Origin: Syntrophaceae bacterium
GTDB lineage: Bacteria > Desulfobacterota > Syntrophia > Syntrophales > UBA5619
Direction: 5' to 3'
Length of the DNA stretch: 56,907 bases
NCBI GenBank assembly: GCA_003141195.1
Contig: PLLC01000026.1
Location: forward strand, 1-56,907
Shown: one piece after another, positions 12,822 through 20,110 of the stretch
How positions within the stretch are numbered: position 1 is the stretch's first letter
How the letters are laid out: each line of letters starts with the position of its first letter
The notes under the pieces: generated by a model
The model's database searches: none
Told to the model about the DNA's origin: nothing
Seen by the model: the letters and a program-made list of their open reading frames with translations, nothing else
Translations under genes and position numbers: made by a program

Positions 12822-13664
12822 TCAGCGGCAACGGCGGGATCGGCGAGACTCCTTCTCAATTATCGCGCCACTTCCGGCAAAACGCACCGATTCCCGAGCA
12901 ACGGAGCCGCCATCCGCTGGAGCCGGCGTTGGGCGCCGTTTGTCATTTGCCTTCTGGGTGTTCTTCTTTCCATAAGGACACACATATAAACATAGACCGC
13001 ATACTTCCAATCCAGGTTTCTTCTCTCTCATCTTCTCGAAATAGCGATCACACTTGCTCGCAGCATAACGCACCTCCCGTGGTTCTCCCTCCCGAAAAGG
13101 CTGCCCGGTAAAAGCTTGTACGGGACATATCTTCACACACTCCTGGCATGTACCACACCTTTCTTCCGTCGGCGCCCCGGTTACCGCTAATGGCGCATCC
13201 GTCAGCACACTCACCCAACGCACCCTTGGCCCGACTTCAGGCGTAATCAACAGGCAGCTTTTTCCTATCCAACCCAATCCTGCCAGATGGGCCGCTAATT
13301 TATGAGAGAAAACAGCGCAAATCCGTTGATCATCGATGCGCTTTGATGCAGGTACCGGAAATGCCTGAGAACCATGTCGCTGCAAGAGACTGCTGACGTG
13401 AGACGCAATCAGGTCAAGACGCTGGTTGACCACATCATATTCATGCCGATAACTCACAGCAACGGCTCGCTCACTTCCATGCGGCAATTGATCGACGATT
13501 GAGCGGGACAAAGCAATGCCGATAGAGATAGCCAATGGATATTCAGCGACGGAATCGCCGCCCTGATCGATAATGGCTTTCTTGGCCGGAGATAGATCGG
13601 CCACTCCCCAGAAATCTGCTCCCCACATCTGCACAGTGCTTCGTATTGTGTCATTGAGTTTCAA
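12822..13664 (-). CDS. QueG-like double [4Fe-4S] protein
   Basis: A 280-residue soluble iron-sulfur protein related to epoxyqueuosine reductase (QueG) but shorter. The N-terminal part ([40 protein letters not shown]) matches the corrinoid/substrate-binding region of the family. Two [4Fe-4S] motifs follow: [12 protein letters not shown] and [11 protein letters not shown]. After the second cluster the protein has a Lys/Arg-rich tail that does not look conserved and may be read-through into other DNA. Translation begins at TTG (13664) with TAGGA upstream, overlapping the end of the truncated toxin gene. It may act on a corrinoid or a modified base; function unproven. Confidence 0.75.
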
Positions 13665-13670
13665 GAATTC

Positions 13671-13922
13671 CTACCTCATCCGGATCACTTTCACTGTCTT
13701 GATGTCGTCGAGAACTTGATAGATCAGGCGGTGTTGTATGTTGATTCTTCGGGAATAGGCGCCGGAGAGATCTCCCACGAGCTTCTCATATGGCGGGGTG
13801 CGGTAAGGATCTTCCTGCAGCAATTCCAATAGGCGACTTGCCTGCGGTTTAAAACCGGATTGTGCTATCTTCTTCGCATCTCTTTTGGCTTGATGGGTAA
13901 AAATTAGACGCCAACTCACCAT
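13671..13922 (-). CDS. YoeB/Txe-family toxin, C-terminally truncated
   Basis: An 83-residue RelE-superfamily mRNA interferase of the YoeB group: SWRLIFTHQAKRDAKKI, then PPYEKLVGDLSGAYSRRINI and QHRLIYQV, ending KVIRMR. YoeB proteins end with RMWTHYE or similar, and that His-Tyr pair is part of the active site. Here the frame stops after RMR, so the last five or six residues are missing. The acidic (Glu in YEKLVG) and Arg (SRRINI) catalytic residues remain. The start overlaps the antitoxin stop. The break coincides with the junction to the QueG-like gene, suggesting a deletion that also removed this cassette's attC. Confidence 0.85.
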   Translation of the reverse strand: MVSWRLIFTHQAKRDAKKIAQSGFKPQASRLLELLQEDPYRTPPYEKLVGDLSGAYSRRINIQHRLIYQVLDDIKTVKVIRMR

Positions 13923-14158
13923 CCGGGCGCCTCATCGCACTTTTCTACAGGGGTTTTGAGGCCCTTCTGGATAGATTCCCGCATCCCTGGTATCGACAGA
14001 AGATATAAAGTCTCTTCTATTGCCCTCCAGTCCTCCTCGGAAACAAGAACTGCTGAACTTCTCTTTCCTACGATCTGGACCGGCACATGTGTCTCCCTTA
14101 CCTCGTCAACCAGATTGTACAGCCGTTTTCTTGCTTCTGATGCTGATAACGTTGTCAT
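13916..14158 (-). CDS. YefM/Phd-family antitoxin
   Basis: An 80-residue antitoxin with the typical N-terminal DNA-binding/dimerisation part (TTLSASEARKRLYNLVDEV, VPVQIVGKRSSAVLVSEEDW) and a C-terminal toxin-binding tail. It would neutralise YoeB and repress its own operon. The ATG at 14158 is chosen over a TTG three codons upstream because GGAG is better spaced. The gene follows a consensus -35 with an overlapping palindrome (14177-14215) and an attC-like site, so the pair is the last recognisable cassette of the array. Confidence 0.88.
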   Translation of the reverse strand: MTTLSASEARKRLYNLVDEVRETHVPVQIVGKRSSAVLVSEEDWRAIEETLYLLSIPGMRESIQKGLKTPVEKCDEAPGW

Positions 14159-14176
14159 TCTTTTCAATCTCCTTAT

Positions 14177-14225: not shown

Positions 14226-14283
14226 GGCGAACGATAACGCTCAGTGGCGGCTCTTAGGCGTCCGCCGGAGTCACAGATTGGGC
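14226..14283 (-). other. attC-like site after the gluzincin-like cassette
   Basis: On the minus strand the 58-bp site runs from GCCCAAT (degenerate R'') to GTTCGCC (R'). Its core CGGCGGACGCC ... GCCGCC is shared in layout with the two stronger sites at 15265 and 16216. The outer arms pair less well, so it may be partly decayed. Its position, just after one gene and before the next on the same strand, fits a cassette boundary. Confidence 0.5.
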
Positions 14284-14321: not shown

Positions 14322-15212
14322 TTACTGTTTCCCGATTACGAGCTTCTGCGCCTCCGCACAGGCTGTCCCGGGGTTTCTTCCAAACAACTTCGATACTGTC
14401 GCAACGTTTTCCTCTTTTGTTTTTTCATTCGCCCTCAGGGCCTTGAGCCAATTCGCCTCAAGTTCTTGCATACCGATCCCGAACACGTCCTGCCATGGCC
14501 GGGCCTTCTCTTGGGAAAGTCGTTGGAACTTCTTTATCTTGTTGATTCCATAGGTCTGAAACAGATAGTTGCCGAAGGACCCGGTTTCGGCATAGGCCTT
14601 GTGTTGTCTGGCTTTATCAAGAATCGAGAGCTTGCCGCCGCCGGCGTCCTTCATACCCCATGACTCATGATCCGGACCCAATTCGTTGAGAGGGATGTAT
14701 GATTTCGCTTTCAAGAGAGCCAATACCCATTCGTCACTGCCGAATCCGCACATGGGGAATGTTAATGGATTGCCGGCTTGCGCCTCTGTAAGAATACCCA
14801 TCATGTTGCGAATCAATTTGTCCTTTTGGGGGAATACAGCGCTCGTAAGCTTGTGTGCCATCATTTGCGATGCTCCATCAGTGCCGAAAACCCGAACGAC
14901 GCGTATGCTCTGATCTCCCTTCTTGTCCCAATAAAAAACACTCGAGTAGACATCCCTGCGCGGTACGTCAAAAAGCACCCTTATCTTTCCAAAGCGCGCT
15001 ATTCCGGAATCAGCAGACCAGAATGCGAGGATTCTATTCATTGTTTCCTGTGCATGGTCGGCTAATCGTTTTAGTTGCTCATTTGAAAGATTGCCTGTGG
15101 TGTCACTCACTATAAGGTGAGAGGTTTCTAAAGTCGCATCAGATGCGTGAGACAAGGCAGGTATAAATAGTCCGGCCACAAACATCGATAAAACTATCGC
15201 TATCCGTATCAT
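14322..15212 (-). CDS. Secreted gluzincin-like (peptidase MA-like) cassette protein
   Basis: A 296-residue exported protein with a signal peptide (hydrophobic IVLSMFVAGLFIPALSHA, cleavage after SHA). The C-terminal layout GSFGNYLFQTYGINKIKKF, followed by MQELEANWLKAL, resembles peptidase MA-like gluzincins. Where the zinc motif HExxH should be, the protein reads QMMAHKLTSAVF, so the second His and the catalytic Glu are absent and protease activity is doubtful. It lies between two attC-like sites and has its own ribosome site (GGGAGAGAGCG). Function unknown; it may be a binding protein derived from a protease fold. Confidence 0.65.
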   Translation of the reverse strand: MIRIAIVLSMFVAGLFIPALSHASDATLETSHLIVSDTTGNLSNEQLKRLADHAQETMNRILAFWSADSGIARFGKIRVLFDVPRRDVYSSVFYWDKKGDQSIRVVRVFGTDGASQMMAHKLTSAVFPQKDKLIRNMMGILTEAQAGNPLTFPMCGFGSDEWVLALLKAKSYIPLNELGPDHESWGMKDAGGGKLSILDKARQHKAYAETGSFGNYLFQTYGINKIKKFQRLSQEKARPWQDVFGIGMQELEANWLKALRANEKTKEENVATVSKLFGRNPGTACAEAQKLVIGKQ

Positions 15213-15264: not shown

Positions 15265-15324
15265 GCCGAACGACAAGGGTCAGTGGCGCGGCACCGCCGC
15301 GTCCGCTGGAACCTTTGGTTATGC
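15265..15324 (-). other. attC site between cassettes
   Basis: Minus-strand reading: R'' GCATAAC, arms CAAAGGTTCCAGCGGACGC and GCGCCACTGACCCTTGTC, a central GCGGC/GCCGC hairpin, and R' GTTCGGC. The arms pair with extra unpaired bases on one side, as expected for the folded single strand recognised by integron integrases. The stop codon of the membrane-protein gene falls inside R''. Confidence 0.78.
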
Positions 15325-16173
15325 TTTTTTTATAAGCCCATATAAATACTTGCTTAAATTAATCATTTTTTGCTTTATTATTTGGGAAAGAGATATAACT
15401 TTTACAGTAGCTCTTTTAGTAACTTCGATAGGAACTAATACGACTAATAGATAAGCATTTTTCATCCAAATCCGATGTTTTTGGATTGAGTCAATAACTT
15501 TTCGTTCCTTTGAAAATATTCTCATCATTTCATTGGTAACACTTGAGCCTATACTTTCTAAATCCCATATGCTCTTTGAAATTGAGGTTTGGGAGGATTG
15601 TACCATTGCTTTTTCAAGGTTTTCCATTACATCACGAATTGGATATATTAGTAGACGAACGTTAAAGAGCAATTCTTTTGTCTTAGGAATAGAAACGTAC
15701 ATTGAGATTAAACGATCCAATTCATCCAGACTTTCTTGTATAGTTATTTTGAAATATTTAATACTATCTAAATCTTTTTTTTGCAGTTCTTGCCCGAATG
15801 AACCTTCTGTAAATACTTTCGAGCTAAGAACAAATAAGATGTTCTCTAGATTGCCATAAATATAATTACTATAAATTTTAAAATTATCATTATTTATCAT
15901 CTCTTTTAACAGAATAGGAAGAGGGTCTTCTATCGAAGCCATTGATAAGAAATTCCTAGCAATCTTATGGAAAACTTGAAATAAATAGAAGTTAGCTATC
16001 ATTCGAGATTGTCTAGATTTTCGTAATTTGTAAAGATAAATTATTAAAGGCAATAAAATCGATAAAAGTAATAGCTCAATTGCAGTTCCTGTAATCTGAA
16101 CAAAAATACCGTTAACATAATCAGGTGTTTTTGCATAAGCTGCCAATTGCTGAAATATTTTATTTATTAACAT
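15319..16173 (-). CDS. AT-rich membrane protein in an integron cassette
   Basis: A 284-residue protein of unknown family. A strong transmembrane segment (LLLLSILLPLIIYLYKL) lies near residue 35, followed by a long, mostly helical charged region and a second hydrophobic stretch (AYLLVVLVPIEV) near the C-terminus. The gene is visibly much richer in A+T than its neighbours, and its codon use (AAA, ATT, TTA) differs from the chromosome, a sign of transfer. No good ribosome-binding site is visible before the ATG. It is bounded by attC sites on both sides. Confidence 0.65.
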   Translation of the reverse strand: MLINKIFQQLAAYAKTPDYVNGIFVQITGTAIELLLLSILLPLIIYLYKLRKSRQSRMIANFYLFQVFHKIARNFLSMASIEDPLPILLKEMINNDNFKIYSNYIYGNLENILFVLSSKVFTEGSFGQELQKKDLDSIKYFKITIQESLDELDRLISMYVSIPKTKELLFNVRLLIYPIRDVMENLEKAMVQSSQTSISKSIWDLESIGSSVTNEMMRIFSKERKVIDSIQKHRIWMKNAYLLVVLVPIEVTKRATVKVISLSQIIKQKMINLSKYLYGLIKKA

Positions 16174-16215: not shown

Positions 16216-16272
16216 GCATAACGTCGCCATTGAGCCGCGCCGATAGGCGTCCGCTCAAATGGCTTGTTATAC
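16216..16272 (-). other. attC site after first cassette
   Basis: Minus-strand reading: R'' GTATAAC and R' GTTATGC flank arms GCCATTTGAGC and GGCTCAATGGC. These pair perfectly except for one unpaired T, the hallmark extrahelical base of attC hairpins. A TATC loop separates GGACGCC from GGCGCGG. The stop codon of the upstream cassette gene lies inside R''. Confidence 0.85.
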
Positions 16273-16761
16273 GGCCAACTCATTCTCTTGATAGACGCGA
16301 CCATACCTGCCGATTAGGCCCTTTGGCCCCAACATTGTACGTTTGACAATAGGTGTAGGGCTCCAGCCCGCATTCTCGGCCAATGCCTGCTCCTGCTGCG
16401 CTTTCGAGAGTATGCCAACGCGAACTGGCTTGTAGTGTTGGCCAAGCTCGATAAGGACGAATTGATTCCATGGTTCTGTGAGTCGGACATTCCGGCCTTT
16501 TTGATTTTCTTCTGTGATGACCTTGACCTGCGTTTTTCTATGCTTCTCTACTAGATCGTATCCTTGATTTGAGCTGCCGAGAACTTTAGTAGGCTGCTGG
16601 CCCAGTCCTTCAAGGAAGCGGAGCGCAATGAACTCGCCAATGCGACCAATGATGTTGTCGTTCCCCCCAATTCGGCCCGGATGGACTCGTCCCAACTGTA
16701 GAAGGTCGTGACGAGCCAGCAGATACCTTTCAATTGCGGTTTGAATCTTTGCATCGGACAT
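16267..16761 (-). CDS. PD-(D/E)XK-like cassette protein of unknown function
   Basis: A 164-residue soluble protein. The arrangement IGRIGEFIALRFLE, then GYDLVEKHRKTQVKVIT, has the Glu, Asp and Q-x-K spacing of a restriction-endonuclease-like nuclease core, as in uncharacterised families often found in integron cassettes. The C-terminal half (FVLIELGQHYKPVRVGILS) would complete the beta-sheet. The ATG at 16761 follows AGGTGA; a GTG three codons upstream is less likely. It is the first cassette after the attI-like site. A nuclease or defence role is inference. Confidence 0.65.
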   Translation of the reverse strand: MSDAKIQTAIERYLLARHDLLQLGRVHPGRIGGNDNIIGRIGEFIALRFLEGLGQQPTKVLGSSNQGYDLVEKHRKTQVKVITEENQKGRNVRLTEPWNQFVLIELGQHYKPVRVGILSKAQQEQALAENAGWSPTPIVKRTMLGPKGLIGRYGRVYQENELAV

Positions 16762-16776
16762 AAAGCTCACCTGGCC

Positions 16777-16794
16777 GTATAACCATTGTTTATC
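16777..16794 (-). other. attI-like recombination point
   Basis: GTATAAC and GTTTATC form an imperfect inverted pair around a 4-bp spacer on the plus strand. On the minus strand this ends in GTTATAC, the R-type core at which the first cassette would join. It lies between the integrase remnant and the first cassette gene, where attI is expected. Confidence 0.4.
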
Positions 16795-16958
16795 TGGATC
16801 GGTATATAACCCCCCAACACCGCACTATTTGCCATATAAGACGCCGATGGAAATTATGATTCATCGACAATAAACATCATTGTATCTAACACTTACGTAT
16901 GAACAGTGTTTTTATCATGGCGTCTTATACGGATCGGCATAAAATTCTCCGGCGCCTG

Positions 16959-17111
16959 TCAAAGGGCGTCGACGGGACTGCGTACCCCGGTCGGCCCGCG
17001 GTTGAGGACATGGGTGTAAATCATATAGATCTGCTCGGCCCGGCGGCTGTAATGGCGCGCGCGCAGGGCTTCCCGCGGTTGATCGAGGAGTTTCGGTTTG
17101 GGGGGAGCTGG
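16959..17111 (-). pseudogene. intI: Integron integrase (intI) with internal deletion
   Basis: The minus-strand frame reads PPKPKLLDQPREALRARHYS, then RRAEQ, the conserved N-terminal start of integron integrases. It then jumps to MIYTHVLNRGPTGVRSPVD, the conserved C-terminal end that carries the catalytic tyrosine. Intact IntI proteins are about 320 residues long; here roughly 270 residues, including the catalytic Arg/His boxes and the IntI-specific alpha-helix, are missing without loss of frame. The open frame extends further upstream (to 17204), but that part is not recognisable. The product cannot recombine. The gene is co-oriented with the cassettes and points towards them. Confidence 0.85.
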
Positions 17112-17623
17112 GGAATCGGCAGGGGCGACGCAACCCGCCTTCCCGGAAGGGGTATTGTCCCGATGGGTGGAGACGATTTTCAGTGACGCCTTCGTCCCGG
17201 TCATTCCTTTGCCCCAAAACCAGTTTGAAACATTCGGGAAAAACCTGAGAAGCCATGCAGCGGATCAGAAAATCAGAAGGAAAACTGAAGGCAGTCAATC
17301 ACCTTCATGCGCATTTGTCAATCATTTTGAGGTTTCGTGTTAGCCGCCATTGACTTGCGGGGCGTTGTTCCCTATACTGGCGGCGAGTGTTGCGGACCAT
17401 GCCCGGCGCCTTCTCGATTGTCTTTCATGCCCGCGGCGATGGGCTCAACGGTTTCAAAAAATATGGTGCAACCCTTTCCCCTGTCGGAGGTTCAGACGAC
17501 GAAGATCCCTGCGTCGTCTGTAATAAGCCCGGCGGAGGGGAGAGAAGCCGCGTGACCGGCAACGGGAGTGGAAAGAAACATCACCCGGCGGTGAAATCGC
17601 GGATCGGCATTCGGGAGGAAGCC
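17112..17623. other. Gene-free stretch between intI remnant and glgP
   Basis: The minus-strand frame of the integrase relic runs into this region without recognisable family sequence. The plus-strand frame upstream of glgP (from 17387) is open but is judged to be leader, because the family N-terminus starts later. The only clear signal is the promoter at 17350-17378. Confidence 0.5.
17350..17378 (+). promoter_or_regulatory. Sigma-70 promoter of glycogen phosphorylase
   Basis: TTGACT and TATACT are separated by exactly 17 bp, one of the best matches to a housekeeping promoter in the window. The next gene downstream on this strand is glgP, leaving a leader of about 240 nt. Confidence 0.65.
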
Positions 17624-20110
17624 ATGAAAAGCGCAGCAGCATCCAAAGGGAAGCCGAAGGCAACCTGCATCCGGACGGGCGGCAGCGTCGAGGAGATGAA
17701 GCAGGCCATTCTCGACAACCTGGTCTGCGTTCAGGGCCGCTTTGCCCCGGTTGCGACTCGGAACGACTACTACCTCGCGGTTGCCTACACGGTGCGCGAC
17801 CGGATTCTCGCGCAATGGGCGAAAACGGCGCACACCTACTATGCAAAGGCGAGCCGGACCGTCTGCTACCTCTCGGCGGAATTTCTCCTCGGCCCCCATC
17901 TGGAAAACCACTTGATCAATCTTGGCCTCTACGAGGCCGTCCGGCAGGCGGTGGGGGAGCTCGGCCTCGACTTTCAGGCGCTGATCGACCAGGAAGAGGA
18001 GCCGGGGCTGGGAAACGGCGGCCTCGGCCGCCTCGCTGCCTGCTACCTCGATTCGCTGGCCACCCTCAACATCCCGGCCATCGGCTACGGCATCCGTTAT
18101 GAATTCGGCATCTTCACGCAGGAAATCCGCGACGGGTGGCAGGAGGAGGTGGCGGATCAGTGGCTGCGCAAGGGGAATCCCTGGGAGGTGGCGCGTCCGG
18201 AGATCGCCTACGACATCCCGTTCGGCGGCCATACCGAAAGCGGCCTCGACGACGCCGGCCGTTATCGCATCCTCTGGATTCCGGAACGCCGGATCCGCGG
18301 CGTCGCCTACGACACGATGATCACCGGCTTCGCCTCCCCTTCGGTCATCATGCTCCGCCTCTTCCGGGCGGAAGCGACGACTGCCTTCGATCTTCGCTCG
18401 TTCAACGTCGGCGATTACTACGGCGCCGTCCACGACAAGATCGGCTCGGAGAACCTGACCAAAATCCTCTATCCCAACGACGAGCCGTTCGCCGGCCGTC
18501 AGCTCCGGCTGATGCAGCAGTTCCTCTTCGTCTCCTGCGCCCTGCAGGACATGATCCGCATCTATTGCCAGCGGAACCCGGACCTGCACGGGTTCCACGA
18601 GAAATACGCCATCCAGCTCAACGACACCCACCCGGCGATCGGCGTCGCCGAGCTGATGCGCCTGCTCATGGATGTCCATGACATGGGCTGGGACGAGGCC
18701 TGGGAGATCACGCGGAAGACCTTCGGCTATACGAACCACACCCTCCTGTCGGAGGCCCTGGAAAAATGGCCCGTTCCGCTCTTCCGGGGCATTCTGCCCC
18801 GCCATCTGGAGATCATCTGCGAGATCAACCGCCGTTTCCTAAGCGACGTCCGCAGGGACCATCCGGGGGACGAGGACCTGATCCGGCGACTTTCCCTCAT
18901 CGACGAGGGCGGCGAACGCTACGTCCGGATGGCGAATCTTGCCTGCGTCGGCAGCCGCCGGATCAACGGCGTGGCCCGCCTGCATACCGATCTGCTGCGC
19001 GAACAGGTCTTGAACGACTTCAACCGGATCTCCCCGGAGAAATTTCTGAACGTGACCAACGGCGTGACGCCCAGGCGCTTCATGGTCCTTTCCAATCCGG
19101 CGCTCGCCGCGCTCATCTCCGAATGCATAGGCCCGGCGTGGATCAAGGATCTGTCCCGGCTCAGGGAACTGGAGGCCTTTTCGCGGGACGCCGGTTTCCT
19201 CGACCGCTGGCGGGCGATCAAACGCCGCAACAAGGAGCTCCTGACGGAGATCATCCGGACGCGCACCGGGATTGCGACCGATCCCGATTCGCTCTTCGAC
19301 GTCCAGGTGAAGCGAATTCACGAATACAAACGCCAGCACCTGAACGTCCTGCACGTGATTGCGCTCTACAGCCGGATCCGCCGGGGGGAGACCAGCGATC
19401 TGCCGCCCCGAACGGTGATCTTCGGCGGCAAGGCGGCCCCCGGCTACTTCATGGCGAAGCTGATCATCAAGCTGATCCACTCCGTCGCCGAGACGATCCA
19501 CACCGACCCGAGGGCGGCCGGTCTGTTGAAGGTCGTCTTCTTTCCAAACTTCAACGTCAAGACCGCGCAACGTATCTATCCGGCGGCGGATCTCTCCGAG
19601 CAGATCTCGACGGCCGGCAAGGAGGCGTCCGGTACCGGGAACATGAAGTTCTCCATGAACGGGGCGCTGACGATCGGGACGCTGGACGGCGCGAACGTGG
19701 AGATCCGGGAAGAGGTCGGCGCGGAGAATTTTTTCCTCTTCGGCCTCGCCGCGAAGGAGGTGGAACAAAAAAAACGTGAAGGCTGGCGCCCGGGGGAGGC
19801 CATCGCGGCCGACGAGGGGCTGCGCGAGGCAATCGAACTCTTAGAGGGCGGTTTCTTCTCCCGCGGCGATCGGGGACTGTTCTTGCCGCTCACACGGACG
19901 CTCCGGGAACGCGACGATTACATGCTCTGCGCCGATTACCCGTCCTACATTGCCTCCCAGGATCGGGTCGGCCGGACCTATCTCCGGCCGAAAGAGTGGC
20001 TGCGGATGAGCGTCCTCAATGTTGCGAGGGTGGGGAAATTTTCTTCGGACCGCGCGATCCGGGAATACTGCGAAAAGATCTGGCAGGTGAACCCGGTCGA
20101 TATCGATTGA
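17624..20110 (+). CDS. glgP: Glycogen/alpha-glucan phosphorylase
   Basis: An 828-residue GT35 enzyme that releases glucose 1-phosphate from alpha-1,4-glucans, using pyridoxal phosphate. Signatures include YYLAVAYTVRDRI, CYLSAEFLLGPHLENHLINL, GNGGLGRLAACYLDSLATL, the substrate loop IQLNDTHPAIGVAEL, KRIHEYKRQHLN and the PLP-lysine motif EASGTGNMKFSMNGALTIGT. The frame is open 79 codons further upstream, but the ATG at 17624 follows GGGAGGAAG and gives the normal length. It is transcribed alone; no other glycogen genes are in the window. Confidence 0.96.
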   Translation: MKSAAASKGKPKATCIRTGGSVEEMKQAILDNLVCVQGRFAPVATRNDYYLAVAYTVRDRILAQWAKTAHTYYAKASRTVCYLSAEFLLGPHLENHLINLGLYEAVRQAVGELGLDFQALIDQEEEPGLGNGGLGRLAACYLDSLATLNIPAIGYGIRYEFGIFTQEIRDGWQEEVADQWLRKGNPWEVARPEIAYDIPFGGHTESGLDDAGRYRILWIPERRIRGVAYDTMITGFASPSVIMLRLFRAEATTAFDLRSFNVGDYYGAVHDKIGSENLTKILYPNDEPFAGRQLRLMQQFLFVSCALQDMIRIYCQRNPDLHGFHEKYAIQLNDTHPAIGVAELMRLLMDVHDMGWDEAWEITRKTFGYTNHTLLSEALEKWPVPLFRGILPRHLEIICEINRRFLSDVRRDHPGDEDLIRRLSLIDEGGERYVRMANLACVGSRRINGVARLHTDLLREQVLNDFNRISPEKFLNVTNGVTPRRFMVLSNPALAALISECIGPAWIKDLSRLRELEAFSRDAGFLDRWRAIKRRNKELLTEIIRTRTGIATDPDSLFDVQVKRIHEYKRQHLNVLHVIALYSRIRRGETSDLPPRTVIFGGKAAPGYFMAKLIIKLIHSVAETIHTDPRAAGLLKVVFFPNFNVKTAQRIYPAADLSEQISTAGKEASGTGNMKFSMNGALTIGTLDGANVEIREEVGAENFFLFGLAAKEVEQKKREGWRPGEAIAADEGLREAIELLEGGFFSRGDRGLFLPLTRTLRERDDYMLCADYPSYIASQDRVGRTYLRPKEWLRMSVLNVARVGKFSSDRAIREYCEKIWQVNPVDID

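Follow-up and report, generated by a model that had tools for sequence, protein, structure and literature searches.

The window examined here is the whole 56,907-nt contig PLLC01000026.1 of a Syntrophaceae bacterium (assembly GCA_003141195.1). Its minus strand carries a collapsed integron integrase gene, intI, an 81-aa open frame with its start codon at 17204 and its stop at 16959, the product of which is MTGTKASLKIVSTHRDNTPSGKAGCVAPADSPAPPKPKLLDQPREALRARHYSRRAEQIY/MIYTHVLNRGPTGVRSPVDAL. The initial annotation had described a 51-aa peptide at 16959-17111. That peptide is indeed present but it is too short: translation of the plus strand of this interval gives nothing relevant, the peptide is coded on the minus strand, and its frame extends to 17204. 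The residues upstream of the first-described start, MTGTKASLKIVS..., align with the N-terminal extension MTGTKAPLKIVS... of the full-length relative L191 (genome G019) and, because that relative begins with MTGTKAPLKIVS, they are counted as part of the collapsed gene. In the alignment with L191 (353 aa), residues 1-60 of the window product correspond to residues 1-60, and residues 61-81 to residues 333-353, so that the start of IntI is joined directly to its end, as had been proposed. Exactly 272 codons (816 nt) are absent, in frame, which agrees with the initial estimate of about 270 residues lost from a still open frame. The deletion removed 77% of the gene and left both ends. Its junction, previously placed at 17033-17040, falls in the alignment between 17025 and 17024 on the minus strand, where codon 60 (17027-17025) abuts codon 61 (17024-17022).

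Both ends of the window copy are homologous to IntI and stand in the right order. Residues 61-81 match positions 295-315 of the 315-position NCBIfam model TIGR02249 (integron integrase; 5e-6), and residues 31-61 match the start of PRK15417 (integron integrase; 2e-5). The IntI identity of the two halves, as read from these family alignments, is far above chance expectation. The collapsed product scores only 26.1 bits over 21 of 315 positions of TIGR02249, below the curated whole-protein cut-off of 265 bits, as against 475.9 bits for a full-length relative. A Pfam search with the collapsed product gave no match because the pieces are too short. These data confirm an integron integrase gene of which an in-frame internal deletion has left only the two ends. 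From the tyrosine recombinase set (two Arg, Lys, His and Tyr) the window copy retains only the tyrosine of IYTH; in the alignment to L191, the remaining catalytic residues all lie within the missing 272 codons, which bears out the suggestion that the tyrosine had been kept without an active site. Tyrosine recombinases that lose all catalytic residues but the tyrosine do not recombine, so the product cannot recombine DNA.

Directly 5' of the start codon is a ribosome-binding-like AAAGGA (17205..17210, minus strand), preceded by a promoter-like PintI of the form TTGACA-17 nt-TTGACT (17293..17321, minus strand) that was recognized by sequence comparison only. The promoter-like region and the leader are common to other intact and collapsed intI loci, with the -35 element TTGACA kept in most. 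On the other side of the gene, the region from the intI stop to the first cassette (16784..16958, minus strand) contains the motif CCGATCC twice, at 16937 and at 16802; after the 16802 copy comes ATAAACAATG^GTT at the boundary with the first cassette, which ATAAACAATG immediately precedes. Full-length intI genes in relatives have this motif pair on their 3' side as well, and by this pair a predicted attI site adjoins intI in the window. The order is intI, attI and cassettes, all in one direction, and likewise at the full-length relative locus L198. Elsewhere in the same genome (G000), attI-like motifs (TTTATACCGATCCATATAAGCAATGTT and similar) occur with no intI seen just upstream (L343, L344 and L346, on contigs C26, C37 and C77); these may be what remains of further integrons, or else off-target sites.

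The attI region leads into an array of cassette genes with four attC-like sites, all on the minus strand. Strict attC pattern scans gave one site, and the other three were located at gene ends by visual inspection and then checked by folding. The first cassette gene (16267..16770, 167 aa) has no family match and is followed by attC site 1 (16216..16272), with a recombining strand that forms a long but imperfect hairpin on folding. The second gene, AT-rich and also without a family match (15319..16173, 284 aa), precedes attC-like site 2 (15265..15324), again a long hairpin by folding. Cassette 3 (14322..15212, 296 aa, no family match) is followed by attC-like site 3 (14226..14283). Further along are a Phd/YefM-type antitoxin gene (13916..14167; Pfam PF02604) and a YoeB/ParE-type toxin gene (13671..13919; PF06769 and PF05016), both assigned to cassette 4, and a QueG-like 4Fe-4S protein gene in cassette 4 or 5 (12822..13664) that scores below the family cut-off. 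The array closes distally with the fourth attC-like site (12877..12936), which is contained in the terminal part of this last frame. On folding, sites 1 and 2 fold well while sites 3 and 4 are degenerate. The GC content is 0.30-0.43 in the proximal array versus about 0.62 outside it. The toxin-antitoxin pair (13671-14167) belongs to a kind of gene pair that commonly stabilizes cassette arrays.

This genome is 96% complete and yielded no full-length integron integrase, and with it no working one; its other integrase matches are XerC/D-like or further relics. Among the relics is a second collapsed intI (L123, G000:C2:24163-24627), a 213-aa frame in which codon 162 is joined to codon 331 and behind which contig C2 carries attI and cassettes. 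Contig C89 of the same genome has an intI of a longer kind with an in-frame deletion, and contigs C39 and C73 carry N-terminal intI stubs. The window array can probably no longer be rearranged, and cassette shuffling would then have been lost. An integrase encoded in a part of the genome missing from the incomplete assembly could act on the array in trans, which is why we grade the freezing of the array as likely only.

The initial annotation proposed looking for the full gene at this site in relatives. The orthologous sites of two congeners have lost even more of the integron. Genome G002 has the same neighbours, an HD-domain gene on one side and glgP on the other, and between them the intI leader as a scar of about 125 bp (L347, G002:C89, reversed 2349-2472) that corresponds to window positions 17213-17337 with 84% identity. 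The site in G002 yielded neither intI nor attI nor cassettes. Where the integron would be, G002 has about 1 kb of other sequence between the scar and the HD-domain gene. The distance from glgP to the HD-domain gene is about 0.9 kb in G007, and no integron sequence was detected within it. The window in turn is without a gene of about 1 kb just upstream of glgP (junction at 17501-17503), which G002 keeps as a 251-aa frame for a membrane protein; because the window has lost this gene as well, the locus is a site of repeated deletion. A long glgP frame that starts at 17387 crosses the 17501-17503 junction, and the true glgP start is probably near 17624. These sites document steps in the loss of a chromosomal integron: a collapsed integrase with attI and array, a leader scar only, and no integron. 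Together with partial and out-of-frame deletions at other loci, they substantiate the earlier description of the window gene as an informative intermediate of decay.

We searched 155 genomes of the order, probably Syntrophales, with the N-terminal part of intI and then read about 100 loci; the class holds this single order of 155 genomes, so a class-level search added nothing. The survey yielded a large number of stubs and about twenty deletions internal to intI. More such deletions turned up when public genomes were scanned, in Cloacimonadota, Deltaproteobacteria, Methylomirabilota, Chloroflexi, Planctomycetota and others, and in the isolate Synechococcus sp. CS-1328 intI is broken in multiple places. 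Many of the collapsed genes elsewhere are independent, with differing junctions, and about half are out of frame. A locus in a Cloacimonadota genome (L251) encodes a 70-aa fusion of the two IntI ends, and one gene (L163) has undergone two successive in-frame deletions. Short homology is present at the junction in L182 (CGCCAT) and in L251 (ATCCGCAC), the latter from YSIRT and YDIRT, which sit at opposite ends of IntI. The window junction, judged without the parent sequence, has no clear short homology.

Some relics are shared between species. The same out-of-frame deletion, joining codon 63 to codon 195, occurs in L125 (G000:C39) and L152 (G005:C369), and the two sequences diverge after it; as its sequence reads, the shared stub is an inherited or exchanged relic. 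L188 (G005:C251) and L181 (G010:C106) have an identical junction, beyond which their DNA is nearly the same, and diverged DNA before it, a pattern that suggests recombination between intI copies. We did not accept this shared junction as a sign of conservation, exchange between copies being as likely when only the downstream DNA is nearly identical. N-terminal stubs of another intI type often stop near GGKTHP, and species pairs have the same stub ends (L155/L159 and L164/L177).

An open frame after a deletion, taken by itself, is a one-in-three event. Among deletions flanked by IntI sequence on both sides, about 14 were in frame and 15 out of frame, and one further deletion kept the phase but has a stop codon where the two parts meet. 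The in-frame excess over one third across all loci gives P=0.07 for 14/29 and P=0.04 for 15/30, in a tally made by eye in which L247, L134 and L301 are uncertain and detection is slightly biased towards in-frame cases. In the family of the window gene, a subset picked afterwards, 9 of 13 deletions are in frame (P=0.009). Overall, the retained frame is not special, and the family count is a lead rather than a result. In-phase short homology, as in L182 and L251, could raise the in-frame share without selection. Strong selection for the reading frame, considered when the first set of deletions was all in frame, was dropped after block-by-block mapping had found about as many out of frame.

Substitutions were compared over the 46 codons that all copies have in common. 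The window copy differs from L191 by 7.5 amino-acid-changing and 18.5 silent changes, the sister copy on contig C2 differs from L191 by 3.5 and 20.5, and the window copy differs from the sister copy by 7.5 and 10.5. With L191 as the reference, the branch to the window carries about 5.8 amino-acid-changing and 4.3 silent changes, and the branch to the sister copy about 1.8 and 6.3. Relative to L191 the window copy thus shows twice the amino-acid changes of its sister, in small counts, which fits a putative relaxation of constraint on the window copy within the limits of such small numbers.

The reading that we prefer, at a probability of about 0.8, is that of an ordinary, still open but decaying intI relic left by illegitimate deletion in a co-oriented integron. 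The deletion would have proceeded through short or no homology and taken 816 bp between codons 60 and 333 of a chromosomal-integron intI. The promoter-like region, start, stop and attI lie outside the deleted segment and survive, so the locus may still be transcribable towards the cassettes. The open frame would be a by-product of a deletion length that chanced to be a multiple of three, and neutral decay of the relic would have followed. What is observed directly is the structure itself, together with its recurrence and the scar at the orthologous site. The open frame, the kept start codon and ribosome-binding-like site, the in-frame share of deletions in the family and, more weakly, over all loci, the lack of clear short homology at the window junction and the small substitution counts speak against this reading. 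Selection against integrase activity is plausible, given the fitness cost described in PMC3510236 and the Xanthomonas integrons (PMC12444791). Joining of reads from several intI genes across a gap during assembly is, in our judgement, very unlikely to have produced the structure. In this genome and in related ones intI is present in several similar copies, at which some contigs end, and the window locus is known here from the assembly alone, but the junction lacks any long common sequence over which an assembler could have crossed from one copy to another. Furthermore, the window copy has private substitutions, the relic is embedded in a 56.9-kb contig, where it has an attI and an array of its own, and equivalent collapses are present in many other assemblies.

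The remaining explanations give the open frame a role. Integrons with a shared promoter and direction might decay preferentially by in-frame collapse, which would drop a costly integrase while ribosomes stay on the message; translation of the leader would avert premature termination and keep the cassettes expressed, and selection would favour in-frame over out-of-frame deletions. Such a mechanism would make the collapsed intI a maintained, non-enzymatic part of the array. Co-orientation, the position of attI directly behind the gene, the retention of promoter-like region, start and stop by copies that differ widely in their interiors, and the in-frame bias in the family of the window gene, including the double deletion of L163, are in its favour, as is the finding that short open frames at attI1, ORF-11 and ORF-18, aid cassette translation (PMC8876359). 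We nevertheless consider it unlikely: the excess over all loci is weak, in-frame cases have a slight advantage in detection, an equal excess could come from in-phase short repeats, and several out-of-frame collapses have attI or attI-like sequence behind them (L189, L160 and L142). Retention of the fused ends as a small DNA-binding or inhibitory protein is highly improbable. An open frame with a start codon and a ribosome-binding-like site would suit it, as would the two-end fusion of L251, but the retained parts vary from copy to copy, so that no common domain is kept, and the window copy, on which constraint looks relaxed, carries private changes, among them a proline within a conserved stretch. 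For this variation and relaxation we rejected a conserved mini-protein as the main reading.

The decaying relic of the preferred reading has counterparts among known systems. About one third of known intI genes are inactive through stops, frameshifts and major insertions or deletions that are scattered and independent (Nemergut et al. 2008, PMC2426708); compared with those pseudogenes, the window gene has lost 77% of its length and yet retains an open frame and both ends, an outcome that recurs in one order. Chromosomal integrons of Xanthomonas combine large intI deletions with stabilized cassette arrays (PMC12444791). They resemble the window in the deletion of intI beside an array and differ from it in the location of intI downstream of ilvD; a text search of that paper gave no mention of an in-frame fusion of two intI ends. 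Nor did we find recurrent in-frame fusion of two intI ends described in the open-access literature. In Treponema integrons, intI is transcribed towards attI, in the same direction as the cassettes (PMC3607928). Since the relic, the attI-like region and the cassettes share a strand, the window integron is of this co-oriented kind, a resemblance of layout that is seen in the window ORFs. Unlike the Treponema integrase gene, the window copy is inactivated, belongs to another phylum and has its own attI motif pair (CCGATCC twice). Syntrophales appears rich in intI relics within co-oriented integrons, which makes the order well suited to asking whether integrase loss is neutral or selected and what effect gene direction has. 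Cassette clusters without an integrase are known as CALIN elements. Like these, the window has an attC array without a working integrase, but it retains intI remains and an intact-looking attI, which places the locus between a complete integron and a CALIN. As a form of gene decay, the window relic is one that has been seen repeatedly; it does not amount to a new system.
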